The notes under the pieces are model-generated. The model was not told where the DNA came from and searched no databases. It saw nothing but the letters and a program-made list of their open reading frames with translations. A stretch of DNA of 64,000 bases from Nodosilinea sp. FACHB-131 (GTDB taxonomy: Bacteria > Cyanobacteriota > Cyanobacteriia > Phormidesmidales > Phormidesmidaceae). A program made the translations under genes and the position numbers. Position 1 is the first letter of the stretch; every line of letters starts with the position of its first letter. Below are positions 48,382 through 61,315 of this stretch, one piece after another. The stretch is taken from NCBI RefSeq assembly GCF_014695395.1, contig NZ_JACJOF010000007.1:62001-126000 (forward strand), given 5' to 3'.

Positions 48382-48699
48382 ACGCAAAGACGTAATGGGA
48401 CAATTACGGTGGCTATGGTTCAGACTTACTGCACCGATACACCGTAGCTTCATTCTAGAGGATGACTCCAAGGGGGCGCGGACTGGCTCTCTCCACGGTC
48501 ATAATCTGTTATGGAAAGTTCCGGCCCTGCCCGAGGTGGGGCAAAGTTCGAGATCCCAAACGGGGCACAGCGTATATCATTGATCGTCAATATTTAGCGG
48601 CTGAAAAGTGGCTGCAAAGGCGGGGTGGCGGTTGGTTTCTGCCCCTCAGGCGTGGATACTCTACGGCTCGTCTTTGAACTCTACAGGGGAAGATATACC
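48382..48699. other. 318-bp divergent region upstream of the repeat protein
   Basis: Between rsfS (-) and the coiled-coil repeat protein (+). Open frames here are not recognisable. A good ribosome-binding site AGGGGAAGA (48686-48694) precedes the ATG at 48700 and sets that start over longer frames. No palindrome or terminator is clear. Confidence 0.5.
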
Positions 48700-51180
48700 A
48701 TGCCTCAACTTACGCAAGGGCTCATCGTTGCTGCTTTAATCGGCCTGCTGCTGGCGATCATCGTGGGGTATTACCTGCGCCAGAGTCAGGTAAATGAGTT
48801 GACCGAGGCCTTGCAGCAGAGCCAAAAGCGCAAAGAGGGGCTAGAAAAAGAGCACGAGCAGCGGCTGCGCACCGCCACCCAGCAGCTGCAAAAAGATTAT
48901 GAAGCTCAGCTTGCTGAGAAAATGGAGCAGTATCAGGATCAGTTTGAGGAGCGGCGCGATCAACTAGAGTCTGAGTACCGCACCCGCCAGAGCGTGATGG
49001 GCGGTGCCCCCGTCGATGCCGATAGCACCACCGAACAGCGCATTCGCAAACAGTACGAAACCCGCCTCAAAGAAGCAGCTACCAAAATTCAGCAAGCCTA
49101 CGAACAGCACCTGCAAGACAAGCTTGTGGAAGCGCGATCGCAGGCGCAGCAGGACTACGACCAGCGGCTGGCGGAGGCGATCGCCCATTACCAAGACCAA
49201 GAGCAAACTCGCCAGCCCCTAGCCCCTAGCGCTCTTTCCCTGGGTGCGCTGGTGCCAGATCAGACAGCCGTAGCTAGTGTAGATACCTCTAACGTCGCTG
49301 AGATCGAAGCCCGACTGCAGGCCGAGTATAATCAGCGTCTGGCCGACTACCAAGCCGACATGGACCAGCGTCTGGCCCAAATGAAACAGGACTACGAGGC
49401 CCGGCTCCGGATGACCCAGGCCAATGGTCCAGTGCCCGCTGCCCTAGACCCCGCTGCCCTAACCCCCTCCACCGCAGAGCTAGAACTCAATCTGCGACGA
49501 GAGCTAGAGGAAAGCCTCGGAGCGGAATACGAGCAAAAGCTGGCCGAGAAGATCGAGCACTACCAGGATGAGCTGACCCAGCGCACCCTGGAGCTTGAGC
49601 AGGCCTACGAAGCCCGTCTGCAACTGCAAGTTCCATCTTTCCCAGAGCCAGTTGCCCCTGTGGCCGATGCGCTAGCAGTAGATTTAGATATGGCCATGCT
49701 TGAAGAGGCTATGCCGCCAGAAGCTGCGATCGCCGACGAAGCTGCTCTGATCGCCGACAGCGAGATTAGCCTAGATATGAATGAGTTCTCCTCAGCAGTG
49801 CCTTCACCGGCAGTAGATGAGGAAGACTCAAACCTGGCTGCAATGCCGGAGAGTGAGGCAGACAGTGGTCAGGTTGATGATTGGGGCCTAGATGGTGATA
49901 TTGACAGCGACGATCTCAACGTAGATGCATTCAATACATCAGAGCCAGACACTATCTCTGATCTATCTGAGCTGAATTTTGACGACGCTGCCGAATCTTT
50001 CCCAGAACCGACCTCGCCAGGGTTCGCCGCAGGCGAATTTGGCTTAGCTGGCCCCGTAGAGAGTGAACCAGAGAGCGTTCAAATTGACGACTTTGGCCTA
50101 GAGCCTGACGTTGACGCTGACAGTCTTGAACTCGGTGCCCTCCTCAACGAACCTGCCTCAGAACCCAGTTCTGAGTTTGCTGTGGATGAGTTTGCTTTTG
50201 AGGCAGCACCGGCATCGGATGAAAGCGATTTCGGCCTGGCTGGCCTGCTCGAAGATGAAACATCGAGTAGTCAAGCCAACGCCCTAGGGCCAGATACCGA
50301 CTTCAACGCCGACAGTCTTGATCTCAATGCCCTGCTCAACGAACCTGCCTCAGAACCCAGTTCTGAGTTTGCTGTGGATGAGTTTGCTTTTGAGGCAGCA
50401 CCGGCATCGGATGAAAGCGATTTCGGCCTGGCTGGCCTGCTCGAGGATGAAACATCCAGTAGTCAAGCCGATGATCTGGGTCTGGACACCGACTTTAACG
50501 CCGACAGTCTTGATCTCAATGCCCTGCTCAACGAACCTGCCTCAGAACCCAGTTCTGAGTTTGCTGTGGACGAGATTGCTCTTGAGGCGGCACCGGCATC
50601 GGATGAAAGCGATTTTGGCCTGGCTGGCCTGCTCGAAGATGAAACATCGAGTAGTCAAGCCGACGCTCTGGGGCCAGATACTAACTTCAACGCCGACAGT
50701 CTTGATCTCAATGCCTTGCTCAACGAACCTGTCTCAGAACCCAGTTCTGAGTTCGCTGTGGACGAGATTGCTTTTGAGGCAGCACCGGCATCAGATGAAA
50801 GCGATTTTGGCCTGGCTGGCCTGCTCGAAGATGAAACATTCAGTGGTCAAGTCGATGATCTGGGTCTAGACACCGATTTCAACGCCGACAGTCTCGATCT
50901 CAATGCCCTTCTCAACGAACCTGTCCCAGAACCCAGTTCCGAGTTTGCTGTGGACGAGTTTTCCCCGGAGACGGCTTCATCTGGGTTAGATGACCGGGAC
51001 TTTGGTTTGGGTGCCTTATTGGAGGGCGAAGCAGACAGCGGTCAAGAGGATGAGTTTAGTCTGGATGCCGACTTTAACGCTGACAGCCTCGACCTCGACA
51101 CCCTACTCAACACGCCTGCACCAGAACCTACCTCTGACGAACTATTAGACGATCTCGACGACCTTAGCAATCTAAGCTAA
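48700..51180 (+). CDS. Membrane-anchored coiled-coil protein with acidic tandem repeats
   Basis: 826 residues. One N-terminal membrane helix (about 8-27, LIVAALIGLLLAIIVGYYLR), then a long coiled coil (about 30-330) rich in Gln/Glu/Lys with repeated xxYxxxLxE units (QRLADYQADMDQRL, EYEQKLAEKIEHYQDEL). From about 330 the chain turns acidic, and from 476 to the end it has five complete 64-residue repeats and a partial sixth. The layout (membrane anchor, coil, acidic LDLNALL-type repeats) recalls FimV-like and other envelope scaffold proteins, but I do not recognise a family. Start at 48700 is set by AGGGGAAGA. Confidence 0.8.
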   Translation: MPQLTQGLIVAALIGLLLAIIVGYYLRQSQVNELTEALQQSQKRKEGLEKEHEQRLRTATQQLQKDYEAQLAEKMEQYQDQFEERRDQLESEYRTRQSVMGGAPVDADSTTEQRIRKQYETRLKEAATKIQQAYEQHLQDKLVEARSQAQQDYDQRLAEAIAHYQDQEQTRQPLAPSALSLGALVPDQTAVASVDTSNVAEIEARLQAEYNQRLADYQADMDQRLAQMKQDYEARLRMTQANGPVPAALDPAALTPSTAELELNLRRELEESLGAEYEQKLAEKIEHYQDELTQRTLELEQAYEARLQLQVPSFPEPVAPVADALAVDLDMAMLEEAMPPEAAIADEAALIADSEISLDMNEFSSAVPSPAVDEEDSNLAAMPESEADSGQVDDWGLDGDIDSDDLNVDAFNTSEPDTISDLSELNFDDAAESFPEPTSPGFAAGEFGLAGPVESEPESVQIDDFGLEPDVDADSLELGALLNEPASEPSSEFAVDEFAFEAAPASDESDFGLAGLLEDETSSSQANALGPDTDFNADSLDLNALLNEPASEPSSEFAVDEFAFEAAPASDESDFGLAGLLEDETSSSQADDLGLDTDFNADSLDLNALLNEPASEPSSEFAVDEIALEAAPASDESDFGLAGLLEDETSSSQADALGPDTNFNADSLDLNALLNEPVSEPSSEFAVDEIAFEAAPASDESDFGLAGLLEDETFSGQVDDLGLDTDFNADSLDLNALLNEPVPEPSSEFAVDEFSPETASSGLDDRDFGLGALLEGEADSGQEDEFSLDADFNADSLDLDTLLNTPAPEPTSDELLDDLDDLSNLS
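50125..51180 (+). repeat. 192-bp in-frame tandem repeats (5 full copies plus partial)
   Basis: Units begin at 50125, 50317, 50509, 50701, 50893 and 51088 (partial). The first four are 192 bp and almost identical at DNA level; the fifth is 195 bp and more diverged. Each encodes LxLxALLNEP.SEPSSEFAVDE..(acidic)..DFGLAGLLEDE..., ending NADS. Near identity including silent sites points to recent duplication or homogenisation. Confidence 0.93.
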
Positions 51181-54638: not shown

Positions 54639-56522
54639 TTGCTGGATAGTGAATCGAGCCATCCTTTGACCACTCTTTGCGTCAACCCTGCTTGTCCACA
54701 GCCTGAGAATGAGGAAAGGGCTAGGGTCTGCACAGCCTGCGGTCAGTCGTTGCGGATGGCTGAGCGCTATTGCTGTCAGCAGTTCCTTGGCCAGGGCGGG
54801 TTTGGGCGCACGTACCTGGCAGTAGATGAGAGCAAAAACCCATCAGCCGTTTGTGTGGTCAAGCAGATGACCTTGGCAGTAGGAAGCGATCGCGGAGAAA
54901 GGCGCGATCGCTTTCACCGCGAGGCCGATCGCCTGGCTACCCTGGGCCAGCACCCTCAAATTCCTGCCCTACTGGATGTGATTGACAACGCTCAAGGGCA
55001 GTTTTTGGTGCAGGAATACATCCCTGGTCCCAACCTCGACCAGCTGATTCAACGATCCTCTAACCTGAGTGGTGAAGCCCTAGTGCAGCGAGTGCTCTAC
55101 GAGCTGCTGCCCGTGTTGGCCTACATTCACGACCACAGCGTTATTCACCGCGACATTAAGCCCGCCAACATTATTGTGCCTCCATCACCGCAACCTCTGG
55201 CCCTGGTGGATTTTGGGGCGGCAAAGGCGATCGCAGACCCCGAACAACTCAAGCGTACCGCTACGGTAATCGGCAGTGCGGGGTACGCTGCCCCAGAGCA
55301 GGCCCTGGGCAAGGCGGTCTACGCCAGCGACATTTTCAGTCTGGGGGTGACCTGCCTGCACGTGCTTACCGGGCTGCACCCCTTCGACCTGTATTCTGTC
55401 AGCGATGATGCCTGGGTGTGGCGGCCCTACGTGACGGCACCCATTAGCCCGGCCCTGGGGCGTGTATTGGATCGCATGGTCAACCGCCGCCTGCAAGAGC
55501 GCTACAGCGATGCCCAAAAGGTGCTGGCCGACCTGCGCTGGAGCGGTCTGGCCTTGGATGCCAAAGACTCAAAATTACCTCTGGTCTCAACCAAGTCGCT
55601 GAATGCCGCCCCGACCTGGGAGCAGCGGTTTGCCCTCAGTCTGCCGGGGATTGTGGCCAACGGCCTGGCGATGAGTCCCCATGGAAGGGCGATCGCCGCT
55701 GCCTGTGCCGACGGCGCTGTGCGCCTGTGGGACTGCACCAACGGAGAGTTGATTCACACCTTTCGCCGATCGCTGGGCCTGCTAGGCGTGGGCCATCGTG
55801 GTGCCGTCAACGCGGTGGCGTTTACCCATGCTGGAGATGCGATCGTCAGCGGCGGCGAAGACAGTCAGCTGATCCGGTGGCAGCTGGATGATTACACTGG
55901 CCATAAATTGCCAGTGTCGAGCTGGCAGATTTCCTCACTGCTGATTGCTCCACCTGACGACACCCTGGCGGTGGGCAGCGGTGATGGGCGCATTCACCTG
56001 TGGGCGCTTGAGCGGGGAGATGGGCCAAAGATGCTGGTGCACCACCAAGACCAGGTGACGGCACTGGCGGTGGATATAGTGGGGAATCTGTTGGTGAGCG
56101 GGGGGCGCGATCGCACCCTGCGCCTCTGGTCACTGCCCTCGGGACGGCTAACTCGTACCCTTACGGCCCCCAAAGCCCCAATTATGGCCCTCGCCTGCCA
56201 CCCCCAGGATGGCCGCATCACCAGCGGCGATGGCGAAGGCCACGTGCAGGTCTGGAGCGCCGAAAATCCTGACCAGGGGCTGGTAATCCACAAAGCTCCT
56301 AACCCGATTACGGCGTTAGCGATCAGCCCTAATGGGCATTGGCTGGCGATCGGGGCAGACGATGGTCACCTGACCCTAAAGAACCTGCAAGGGCTGGGCC
56401 AAACCATTCAGCTGCGCCACGCCTGGGGCGTACGGGCGATCGCCTTTACCCCCGACAGCCGTATGTTGGTCAGCACCAGCGCCGATCAAACCATTCGCTT
56501 TTGGTGCCTTGAGGCCGCCTAG
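54639..56522 (+). CDS. Ser/Thr protein kinase with N-terminal zinc ribbon and C-terminal WD40 propeller
   Basis: 627 residues. Zinc ribbon C14-x4-C19...C31-x2-C34 (CTACGQSL). Kinase domain about 45-300: FLGQGGFGRTYLAV, VVKQM lysine, VIHRDIKPANII, VDFGAAK and APEQ, all catalytic residues present. C-terminal part has seven WD40 repeats (for example VNAVAFTHAGDAIVSGGEDS and VRAIAFTPDSRMLVSTSADQ), one full propeller. Cyanobacterial kinases of the SpkB/D type share the Cys-rich start. It is cytosolic as drawn, with a TTG start at 54639 and no signal peptide or membrane helix. Targets are unknown. Confidence 0.93.
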   Translation: MLDSESSHPLTTLCVNPACPQPENEERARVCTACGQSLRMAERYCCQQFLGQGGFGRTYLAVDESKNPSAVCVVKQMTLAVGSDRGERRDRFHREADRLATLGQHPQIPALLDVIDNAQGQFLVQEYIPGPNLDQLIQRSSNLSGEALVQRVLYELLPVLAYIHDHSVIHRDIKPANIIVPPSPQPLALVDFGAAKAIADPEQLKRTATVIGSAGYAAPEQALGKAVYASDIFSLGVTCLHVLTGLHPFDLYSVSDDAWVWRPYVTAPISPALGRVLDRMVNRRLQERYSDAQKVLADLRWSGLALDAKDSKLPLVSTKSLNAAPTWEQRFALSLPGIVANGLAMSPHGRAIAAACADGAVRLWDCTNGELIHTFRRSLGLLGVGHRGAVNAVAFTHAGDAIVSGGEDSQLIRWQLDDYTGHKLPVSSWQISSLLIAPPDDTLAVGSGDGRIHLWALERGDGPKMLVHHQDQVTALAVDIVGNLLVSGGRDRTLRLWSLPSGRLTRTLTAPKAPIMALACHPQDGRITSGDGEGHVQVWSAENPDQGLVIHKAPNPITALAISPNGHWLAIGADDGHLTLKNLQGLGQTIQLRHAWGVRAIAFTPDSRMLVSTSADQTIRFWCLEAA

Positions 56523-57458: not shown

Positions 57459-57595
57459 GGCAACGCCCAACGAAGTGCCTCTACTCTAGCCGCTGCATGG
57501 GCCAACCTCCCTCCCCTGCCCAGTAAAAAATCCTTCCAACCCCCGCCCCAGCGTGTATCCTTTAGCAGATCGTTTACTGACCTCTGGGTACCGCC

Positions 57596-60500
57596 ATGAA
57601 TCAGTTTCCTAAGCCGTCTCTGGCCATGCTAGCGCTGCTCAGCGCCCTGGCTGCGCTGCCGATCAATGCGCTCAGGTCTGAGCCTCGGCTGCTGGCTCAG
57701 GTGACTGAGAAACCCACACCCACCTTTACCCTGCAACCGAGCGTCCCCGCCGGCACTACCCTCTCGATTGAGGGGTCACCGTCGATGGTGGAGATCAACG
57801 AGAGCCTGGGTGAAGGCTTTGAGGCCCGCTACCCTGATACCGATGTGGTGGCGTCGATTAGTGGTGACGATCAGGCGCTCCAGGCACTGCGGGACGGTGA
57901 CGTAGAGCTGGCGGCTCTGGGGCGATCGCTCAGTGACGCCGAGGAAGATCCGAGCCTGACGTCAATTCCAGTGGCGCGGGAAAAAATTGCCATCATTGTG
58001 GGGCGCGACAACCCGTTCCGAGGTGATTTGACCTTTGATGAGTTTGTTGCCATTTTTCGTGGTGAAATCACCAACTGGTCGCAGCTGGGTGGACCCAACG
58101 TGCCGCTGCGGTTTGTCGATCGCCCCGCCACCAGCTCTATCCGGTTGGCCCTAGCCGACTACGAAATCTTTCAAGCCCAGCCCTTTGAGACTGGCGACAA
58201 CGCCGTGCAGGTAGAGGAGGATGACACCGCTGCGGTGGTGCGTGAGCTGGGCAGCGACGGCATTAGCTATGCGATCGCCTCTGAAGTGCTAGGGCAAGAC
58301 GCCGTGCGCCCGGTGAGCCTAGACGGCACCCTGCCCGACGACCCCCGCTATCCCTACTCTCAACCCCGCAATTACATCTATCAGGGTGAGCCGAGCCTGC
58401 CCGTAGAGGCATTTTTGGGTTTTGCCACCAGTGACGAAGGCCAGGCCGCTGTGGCCGAGGCGCAGCAAACCGCCCGCGCCAACGTCACCGTGGGGGCCAG
58501 CAAGCTACCCGGCGGTGTGGCTTTGGCCCCGGATGGTCAGTTTATGGTGCGCGGCACTGAAGACGGTCAGCTGCAATGGCTGGATGCTGACGGCAATCTG
58601 ACGAAAACGGTGGTAGCCGATGCCCATCAAGGGGCCGTATCGACTGTAGTGATTAGCCCCGATGGCCAAACCATCGTTTCTAGCGGAGCCGATGGCACCC
58701 TGCGCCGGTGGGATCGCAGCGGTAACCCGATTGGCGAGCCGATCGAAGGGCAGGGTGGCCCAATTTTGGCCCTGGCCGTCAGCCCTGACGGTCAAACCCT
58801 GGCCAGTGGCAGCGCTGACGGCACCGTAGAGCGCTGGTCGCTGGCCGATGGCACCCGCGTGGGTGAACCCATTGCCGCCCCCGGTGGGCCAGTGCAGGCG
58901 CTCCACTACCCGGTGGGTGGGCAAACGCTGATTACGGGCAGCCGCGACGGCAACTTGGGCGTTTGGAATGCGGATGGCACTGCTGCAGGCCAAAGCGCCA
59001 ACGCCCACCCCGAGGGCGTGACCACCATTACCAGCAGCCCCGATGGCCAGGTCTTAACTACCACGGGCGGTGACGGCAGCCTGCGCAACTGGGATCGCTC
59101 CACTCTCCAACCCAGGGGAAATACCATTCAAGCCCATGGCGACAGGGTTAGCGCTGTGGCCTACAGCCCCGACGGCCGCACTCTGGCTACTGCCGGGGCC
59201 GACAGCACCCTCCAGCTGTGGTCGGCGGATGGCAGTAAGCAACTGGCAGAACCGGTGCAGCTCGATGAGCCTGCAGCCTCCCTGGGGTATACCCCCGAGG
59301 GACTGCTGGTGGTGGGAGGGAGCGATCGCCAGGTTGAACTGCGCAATGACCGGGGCGAGCTGGTGTCCAACAGTGAATCTGGGGCTGGCTCGGGAGACGC
59401 CAACGACCCGATCACGGGTTTGGGTGATTTCTGGCAGCGCCTGCGGGACTTGCCTCCCAGCGCTTGGTGGATGCTGGCCGTGATTCCGGCCCTGCTGCTG
59501 CTGTTTGGTATTGCGGGGTCGCTGTTTAGCAAAGACGACGACGATGAGGATGAGCTAGAGGCCGACGGCGATCGCGGCACGGCGGTGGGTCTCATCCCTG
59601 GTCCAGATATCGATTTTTCTAAGGTAAGTAGCCAGCCCCCGGCAGATAGGCCAGTGCTTCCCCCAACTCCTCTGCCCGAGGTAGAGGGGTTGCCCCCCGA
59701 GGCCGAACTCGTGCCCAGCGGTGAGTATCTAGGAGCAGTGCCGCCAGACAAACTAGAGCAGGCCCGCATTGACCTGGCTGAGGGTCGTCGCCTGATGCGC
59801 GAGGGCCGTTACGACAACGCTCTGATCTACTTTAACCAGGCTGTGGAAGCTACCGAAGTGGAGCGCCGCAAGACTGACGCTACCGCGACAGCGGCCGGAG
59901 GCATCAACGCCATTGCCGCCCAGGCCCAGGCCGAGCGAGGGAATGCCCTAGCGCTTTTGGGGCAGGCCAACGACGCTATGGATAGCTTTAATGCCGCGCT
60001 GCGCCTCGACGCCAGCGTTGTTGACGCCTGGATTGGCAAAGGCCGTTTGCTCAGCACCATGGCCCGCTACGAAGAATCTCTCTTCTGCTTTGACACCGCC
60101 CTAGAACTCGACCCCACGTCCGCCGCGGCTCTTTCGGGCAAGGGACAAGCGCTCATAGCGATGGGCCGCCAGAGCGAGGGACAAGCCTGCCTGGATCGGG
60201 CCGCTGCCATGGCTAACGGCGATTCTACCTGGGAGCTACCTGCGATCGATGCTCCCCCTGAAGCCGGAGCATCGATCGCAGGGGCTGCAGCGATTGGCAG
60301 CGCCTCTGGGTCAGGGGTGGTGCCTGAGTATGCCCCTCCATCGGACTATGGCTACGACCCCGATGTGCCCATGGAGCTACAGCAGATGGTGCAGGGGCTG
60401 CCATCCGCCGATGTGGAAATGGTGGGCACCTCCACCCTCAGTTTTGATGTGCCCCCAGACCTGGCGGCAGAGGCGGCTGAGTTGCCCGATCGCGCCGAAG

Positions 60501-61315
60501 ATGCCAGCGCGATTCGCGAAGCGATCCCTACGGGAATCGCCCCTGGCTTACCGCCCGCTGCCCCTGAAGGCGTCCCCAATGGCGATGTTCCAGCGGCGAT
60601 TCCCCCTGAGATCCCGGTGTCAGAGCCGGTGCCCAGCACTCTGGAAGAAGAACTGCTCAGCCAAGTGCGTCTTGGGAATACCCCTCCCGTTGAGGCCGAG
60701 CCTACGGCGCTGCCGATGGAAAGCAACGGTGCTGCTACCTCGGCAACAATGCCGCCCCTACGACCGGCCCCGATGCCTGTACCGCCGCCGGTGCTCCTAG
60801 AACCGGGTGACTATGTGCCGCCCCCGGCAGAGGTGTCGGGAAGCGAGGATTTGTCGGGATTGGAGGGACTGCCGCCCGAGGTCATGGCGGCTCTAGCCAG
60901 CATTCCGCCCAGTTCGCCCGACAGCTTTGGGGTTGTGCCCACCAGCTCTGAGCCAGTACCAGAAGATACTGACGATGCCGCTGCTGCTAGCTGGATTCGC
61001 CTATCCATTGACCAGGATGGGGGGCGATTCTATGCGGTGTGGCAGATCGACGAGGGCGATCGCGCCCAGGCCAAAGCCGACGGCGGTGAAACCATGACCC
61101 TGCGCCTCTACGATGTCACCGGTCGGGCCACTCAAGCCGCGCTGCCCCCAGCGGTAGTGGAGCAGCGCTGCCGCGACGACTTTGCCCAAGACTGGTACCT
61201 GCCCATTCCCCAGTGGGATCGCATCTATGTCGTAGAAGTGGGTTATCTAAGTGCGGCTGGCGATTGGCTAGCGATCGCGCAATCGATCGAGGTAGCGGCG
61301 ATTTCTGCTGCTTAA
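57596..61315 (+). CDS. Giant PstS-like / WD40 / membrane / TPR / DUF4912 protein
   Basis: 1239 residues, one frame with no break. Order: signal-like N-terminus (1-36); phosphate-binding-protein-like domain (about 50-300: SPSMVEINESLGEGFEARYP, VAFFRGE-type loop FVAIFRGEITNWSQLGG); seven WD40 repeats (about 301-580); one membrane helix (624-645, WWMLAVIPALLLLFGIAGSL); acidic loop; TPR-like repeats (731-874, GRRLMREGRYDNALIYFNQA); Pro-rich linker; DUF4912 (about 1131-1239, SWIRLSIDQDGGRFYAVWQI). The sensor half would be outside and the TPR/DUF4912 half inside. Known families, unknown combined role. ATG at 57596. Confidence 0.9.
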   Translation: MNQFPKPSLAMLALLSALAALPINALRSEPRLLAQVTEKPTPTFTLQPSVPAGTTLSIEGSPSMVEINESLGEGFEARYPDTDVVASISGDDQALQALRDGDVELAALGRSLSDAEEDPSLTSIPVAREKIAIIVGRDNPFRGDLTFDEFVAIFRGEITNWSQLGGPNVPLRFVDRPATSSIRLALADYEIFQAQPFETGDNAVQVEEDDTAAVVRELGSDGISYAIASEVLGQDAVRPVSLDGTLPDDPRYPYSQPRNYIYQGEPSLPVEAFLGFATSDEGQAAVAEAQQTARANVTVGASKLPGGVALAPDGQFMVRGTEDGQLQWLDADGNLTKTVVADAHQGAVSTVVISPDGQTIVSSGADGTLRRWDRSGNPIGEPIEGQGGPILALAVSPDGQTLASGSADGTVERWSLADGTRVGEPIAAPGGPVQALHYPVGGQTLITGSRDGNLGVWNADGTAAGQSANAHPEGVTTITSSPDGQVLTTTGGDGSLRNWDRSTLQPRGNTIQAHGDRVSAVAYSPDGRTLATAGADSTLQLWSADGSKQLAEPVQLDEPAASLGYTPEGLLVVGGSDRQVELRNDRGELVSNSESGAGSGDANDPITGLGDFWQRLRDLPPSAWWMLAVIPALLLLFGIAGSLFSKDDDDEDELEADGDRGTAVGLIPGPDIDFSKVSSQPPADRPVLPPTPLPEVEGLPPEAELVPSGEYLGAVPPDKLEQARIDLAEGRRLMREGRYDNALIYFNQAVEATEVERRKTDATATAAGGINAIAAQAQAERGNALALLGQANDAMDSFNAALRLDASVVDAWIGKGRLLSTMARYEESLFCFDTALELDPTSAAALSGKGQALIAMGRQSEGQACLDRAAAMANGDSTWELPAIDAPPEAGASIAGAAAIGSASGSGVVPEYAPPSDYGYDPDVPMELQQMVQGLPSADVEMVGTSTLSFDVPPDLAAEAAELPDRAEDASAIREAIPTGIAPGLPPAAPEGVPNGDVPAAIPPEIPVSEPVPSTLEEELLSQVRLGNTPPVEAEPTALPMESNGAATSATMPPLRPAPMPVPPPVLLEPGDYVPPPAEVSGSEDLSGLEGLPPEVMAALASIPPSSPDSFGVVPTSSEPVPEDTDDAAAASWIRLSIDQDGGRFYAVWQIDEGDRAQAKADGGETMTLRLYDVTGRATQAALPPAVVEQRCRDDFAQDWYLPIPQWDRIYVVEVGYLSAAGDWLAIAQSIEVAAISAA

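Follow-up and report, generated by a model that had tools for sequence, protein, structure and literature searches.

A possible undescribed cyanobacterial superfamily of single-pass membrane proteins with a PstS-derived head and interchangeable cytosolic modules

The gene at 57596-61315 (+) of the window, the whole 64,000-nucleotide stretch of DNA that was analysed, encoded a membrane protein whose relatives may form an undescribed cyanobacterial superfamily. In this superfamily, which we propose at slightly below even confidence, a PstS-derived head for something other than phosphate would act as a universal mounting or sensing device for interchangeable cytosolic modules, acetyl-CoA synthetase among them. 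The window protein is tentatively read as a single-pass envelope receptor or tether that holds scaffold modules under an envelope-facing clamp, the ligand being other than free phosphate. The architecture, its conservation, the evidence on topology, the change in the pocket and the exchange of inner modules can all be read from the sequences. Signalling through the TPR and DUF4912 regions, as the initial annotation had proposed, is so far an inference: the family scan showed no signalling enzyme among the families listed, and three genomes have lost the PBP domain while keeping the rest.

The ORF reading gave a single intact frame with an ATG start, 1239 codons for 1239 residues and zero internal stops; all features of the gene lie on the + strand. 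The hydropathy profile showed two hydrophobic helices, at residues 8-26 and 626-644. The first lay inside a signal sequence (residues 1-27, 57596-57676) that was kept in the orthologues. The second, with a hydropathy of 2.41, marked the membrane helix (residues 624-646, 59465-59533), and the segment directly after it, KDDDDEDELEA (59534-59566), was acidic and was Asp/Glu-rich in the orthologues too. A PstS-type periplasmic-binding-protein (PBP) domain occupied residues 46-295 (57731-58480), where Pfam matched PBP_like_2 (PF12849) at residues 51-281 with an E of 1.2e-29 and 104.4 bits against a gathering score of 27. It was followed by a WD40 propeller (residues 305-590, 58508-59365; Pfam repeats over about residues 300-590, E 1.1e-39). 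This region was modelled at a pLDDT of about 83-93 and matched the seven-bladed propeller 7bie in Foldseek (TM-score on target 0.91, 30% identity), giving seven four-stranded blades.

Beyond the membrane helix, Pfam found a TPR region (residues 735-870, 59798-60205) by TPR_2, TPR_1 and TPR_8, with TPR_2 matching in three stretches (E 5.6e-14). The chain ended in a divergent copy of DUF4912 (residues 1131-1237, 60986-61306), and PF16258 matched at residues 1141-1234 (E 3.4e-15, 56.8 bits, cut-off 29.4). The DUF4912 model (pLDDT 90) was a beta sandwich nearest to fibronectin type III (FN3) and cytokine-receptor domains; the best Foldseek match was 4nzd (E 3.3e-4), the FN3 domain 5dft gave a TM-score on target of 0.71, and TM-scores lay at about 0.5-0.7. 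Folds of the FN3 type usually serve for binding; DUF4912, being FN3-like on this model, presumably does so too, in keeping with a role as a scaffold. The folded domains (PBP, WD40, TPR and DUF4912) were under purifying selection, with NG86 dN/dS values of 0.03-0.17, and the Pro/Glu-rich linker (residues 871-1125, 60206-60970) evolved faster, at about 0.27-0.32. The ORF, Pfam and hydropathy results bear out the initial annotation, which had described one chain with a signal-like start, a PstS-like domain, WD40, a helix, TPR and DUF4912, and its count of seven blades agrees with the 7bie match.

Among 28 genomes of the same genus, 22 (the window's own included, and five with the copy cut by contig ends) carried the PBP domain, the WD40 region, the helix and the inner region. 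The architecture is thus conserved, rather than the recent one-strain fusion that had been named as the outcome speaking against the annotation. Three further genomes of the 28 had the same protein minus the PBP domain only, with propeller, helix, TPR and DUF4912 kept; counted from the table, one more had a fragmentary copy and two were without any. The named relatives were Nodosilinea, Leptolyngbya, Phormidium and similar filamentous cyanobacteria, and in four more genera belonging to the same family the order was PBP-WD40-helix-TPR, with no terminal DUF4912. In a quick tree of the WD40-TPR part, with moderate support, the PBP-less proteins grouped with a PBP-bearing protein within the genus, which makes a loss of the PBP domain there probable. 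This loss counts against the receptor or tether reading, as the clamp is not always needed. It would also suit an explanation in which the WD40 propeller is the working part in the genus and the PBP domain a dispensable inherited cap, since the rest of the protein was kept in all three genomes. However, the PBP domain showed dN/dS values of 0.10-0.17 in the genomes that have it, and the long branches of the PBP-less proteins point to a relaxed or changed function there. We rate this explanation as the least likely of those considered.

The window protein belongs to a wider family, defined here by a signal sequence, a PBP domain with a DRPxxSDTR-type signature, a helix and a variable inner part. 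The window genome alone held three more PBP-helix proteins, one with a single DUF4912 (C20), one with three (C8) and one with an unassigned C-terminal part (C15). Run over 244 genomes of the phylum, the PBP profile hit 68; some 40-odd of its loci were large proteins and the rest were soluble proteins of about 300-340 residues. A Pfam scan of 43 large proteins found the PBP domain in 43/43, DUF4912 in 34/43, WD40 in five and TPR in four. One member (L061) carried a coiled coil and helix-hairpin-helix repeats on the PBP-helix base. In four genomes of one family the PBP-helix protein was fused to acetyl-CoA synthetase (G045, L063:8299-12090 (+); G295 and G297, single frames; G294, in pieces). The ATP-binding and lysine motifs of the fused enzyme were intact, and no separate full-length acetyl-CoA synthetase was found in these four genomes among the matches listed. 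A glycogen-phosphorylase-like (carbohydrate phosphorylase) domain followed PBP-helix-TPR at L059:10264-14736 (-) of genome G058, a fusion seen in one of 194 genomes; a free phosphorylase of the ordinary kind is present in G058 as well. The fused domain reads EASATGNLI in place of the PLP lysine motif EASGTGNMK, and because the PLP lysine is missing it is probably inactive, a pseudo-enzyme on a membrane tether.

Some further observations were made at the loci of the paralogues. Directly downstream of the C15 gene lies glgC (L052:11641-12930). A glycogen link, based on this gene and the phosphorylase fusion, was rejected with no conserved partner in 51 loci, one fusion in 194 genomes and the PLP lysine lost. 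A small protein with no Pfam match adjoins the gene for the PBP-helix protein with three DUF4912 copies on its downstream side in two cyanobacterial families (L053:7423-8001 (-) and L110:12281-12811 (+)), and it is a possible partner.

The structural model of the PBP domain was poor (pLDDT about 30-60), and the statements on its pocket are therefore drawn from sequence alignment. Positions were tabulated against C. perfringens PstS (4Q8R) for 21 soluble Sll0540-type and 60 membrane-anchored proteins. Arg125 of 4Q8R is a named phosphate contact (PMC12421899); the remaining contact positions, carried over from the same paper by motif, are putative. T12, S59, R125, S129, G130 and T131 (4Q8R numbering) were kept in 21/21 soluble proteins. 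In the membrane-anchored group R125 was present in 55, S129 in 57 and T131 in 54 of the 60, whereas T12 was found in only three, S59 in one (Gly in 48, Ala in 10) and G130 in two (Asp in 44, Glu in six, Ser in six). Position 124 was Asn in all 21 soluble proteins and Asp in all 60 membrane-anchored ones, and position 132 was Arg in 60/60 of the latter, giving the clade signature DRPxxSDTR. The tree agreed with a single membrane-anchored clade, split from the soluble Sll0540 type by a branch of length 0.59 with 100/100 support. This consistent, clade-wide rebuilding indicates that the pocket is constrained and not decaying.

Compared with its clade, the window protein was more altered. It keeps the equivalents of S11 (S61), R125 (R176) and S129 (S180), and its signature runs D175-R176-P177...S180...R183, S181 and I182 standing where the clade signature has D and T. 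The replacements are T12 to P62, S41 to D91, S59 to G109, G130 to S181 and T131 to I182, so by alignment the pocket no longer holds the PstS phosphate contact set. A pocket that is conserved yet changed points away from phosphate and towards a different ligand or an internal lock. The initial annotation had proposed a sensor of phosphate or a close anion, in which the PstS-like domain would report the periplasmic level to the inner scaffold. The PstS fold and ancestry, the retention of R176, S180 and S61, and the relative fused to a phosphorylase, a phosphate-using enzyme family, are in line with such a sensor. Nevertheless, we consider it unlikely. Five contact equivalents (Thr12, Ser41, Ser59, Gly130 and Thr131) are replaced in the window protein and three of them (T12, S59 and G130) clade-wide; the score against the PstS family TIGR02136 was 85.2 bits, far below the cut-off of 206.6; the fused phosphorylase lacks the PLP lysine; and no Pho-box-like site was found in the 160 bases upstream of the gene. 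The annotation was thus right on the PstS-like domain, as PBP_like_2 and the nearest structure agree, but phosphate as the ligand was not supported, the pocket residues named as a check on it included.

The placement of the two halves was judged from several features. Within the group of the window protein the ectodomains contained a single Cys over 12,574 residues and the inner parts 63 over 12,833, and in the wider family the figures were two in 13,709 and 128 in 30,332; these counts come from related sequences, and p-values on them overstate independence. The adjacent cytosolic kinase-WD40 protein had four Cys in its 297-residue propeller. Both the signal sequence and the membrane helix were present in the orthologues. 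Of 50 family helices, 44 were flanked by more Lys/Arg inside than outside and one showed the reverse, although in a few rows the chosen helix was a second hydrophobic stretch. At the window protein's own helix the charge rule was neutral to unfavourable, owing to the acidic run, and this counts against the receptor or tether reading. In relatives the part after the helix must be cytosolic, because enzymes requiring ATP, CoA or glycogen follow it there. The Cys bias, the conserved signal and helix and the enzyme fusions support a topology with the PBP domain and propeller outside and TPR and DUF4912 in the cytosol, the same outside/inside split that the initial annotation had drawn.

On the receptor or tether reading, the exported PstS-derived clamp would bind a small molecule, an envelope component or a protein rather than free phosphate, and the propeller would dock a protein partner in the periplasm. 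The protein might then position or cluster inner-face partners bound by TPR and the FN3-like DUF4912. The family would serve as a mounting plate, with the inner module changed by lineage. Since the inner module is swapped in this way, the members may share one job, that of bringing a cytosolic module to a particular membrane site or of doing so when an envelope ligand is present. A passive tether or structural scaffold is possible and ranks nearly as likely. Here the outer half would anchor the protein to an envelope component, no ligand-driven signal would cross the membrane, and the pocket would act as an internal lock, the place of phosphate being taken in most relatives by an acidic residue. 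Of the 60 proteins, 50 had such a residue at the G130 position, but the window protein has Ser there, not Asp. No kinase, cyclase or other signalling enzyme was seen among the families listed in the scan of 43 members (25 of the 62 matched), acetyl-CoA synthetase with intact catalytic motifs is mounted in the same way, and the Pfam scans found no HAMP or other coupling element beside the single helix; all three suit a passive tether. On the other hand, several pocket positions varied little or not at all over 60 divergent proteins, a pattern that a ligand could explain.

The surroundings of the gene were conserved at close range only. Its neighbours are cca, a Ser/Thr kinase-WD40 gene, a ferritin-like gene and an ECF sigma factor, with synteny at genus level only. 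The kinase-WD40 fusion lies at 54639-56522, two genes upstream on the same strand, and shares this genus-level synteny. Unbiased neighbour clustering across 51 loci gave no conserved partner gene and no neighbour conserved beyond the genus, another point against the receptor or tether reading; operon logic at this locus was rejected because the neighbours are conserved only as genus synteny. Among the Pfam-scanned ORFs around the gene no PstCAB transporter genes were found. Further upstream, 48625-51180 encodes a coiled-coil protein whose C-terminal half contains acidic repeats, each some 60 residues long and almost identical to one another. An upstream element, GTGTATCCTTTAGCAGA (57553-57569 (+)), ends 26 bases before the ATG. 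In an alignment of 13 orthologous upstream regions it was invariant or almost so, and the flanks had diverged. At up to 2 mismatches it occurred once in the genome, and a regulon motif was rejected on that ground. No upstream riboswitch was found, the single Rfam match (HOTTIP_3, 7.6 bits) being a chance match.

Each part of the protein is known, and the combination and the family are apparently undescribed. No description of either was found in the open-access literature, where absence is weak evidence; DUF4912 turned up there in one paper, on cotton callus transcriptomes. If the proposal is correct, a large anonymous cyanobacterial set, usually annotated as phosphate-binding or DUF4912, would become one coherent family of heads that span the membrane and have a changed ligand, and to annotate its members as phosphate-binding would mislead. 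A fold and a setting could be assigned to DUF4912, and in the enzyme fusions metabolism would be attached immediately beneath a binding domain that faces the envelope. Because the pocket differs from that of the soluble paralogues, the question of the ligand can be tested directly.

Among known systems, the PBP domain is nearest in solved structure to Sll0540 of Synechocystis (9l8j, E 1.1e-53), a PstS homologue. The Sll0540 type is soluble, has about 310-340 residues and keeps the phosphate contact set, which is changed in the membrane family. With PstS itself (TIGR02136, 4Q8R) the window protein has in common the fold and the Arg125 and Ser129 equivalents; unlike PstS, it falls below the family cut-off, has several contacts replaced and is membrane-anchored, with WD40, TPR and DUF4912. 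DUF4912 is also shared with a Rho_N-DUF4912 protein (C21 in the window genome), which is cytosolic by sequence and, unlike the window protein, has no PBP domain or helix. This protein of about 430 residues (L054:9481-10824 and elsewhere) occurs about once per genome in many cyanobacteria, and its conserved tail is shared with the paralogue C20. Venus-flytrap (periplasmic-binding-protein) receptors such as the BvgS-type sensor kinases combine an exported clamp, a helix and a cytosolic effector, and the same plan is seen here. Unlike in the BvgS type, no kinase or cyclase output was seen among the families listed for the relatives of the window protein, whose effectors are scaffold modules or metabolic enzymes. 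In kind, they are Venus-flytrap-headed membrane proteins, set apart by the rebuilding of the PstS pocket and by their unusual inner modules.
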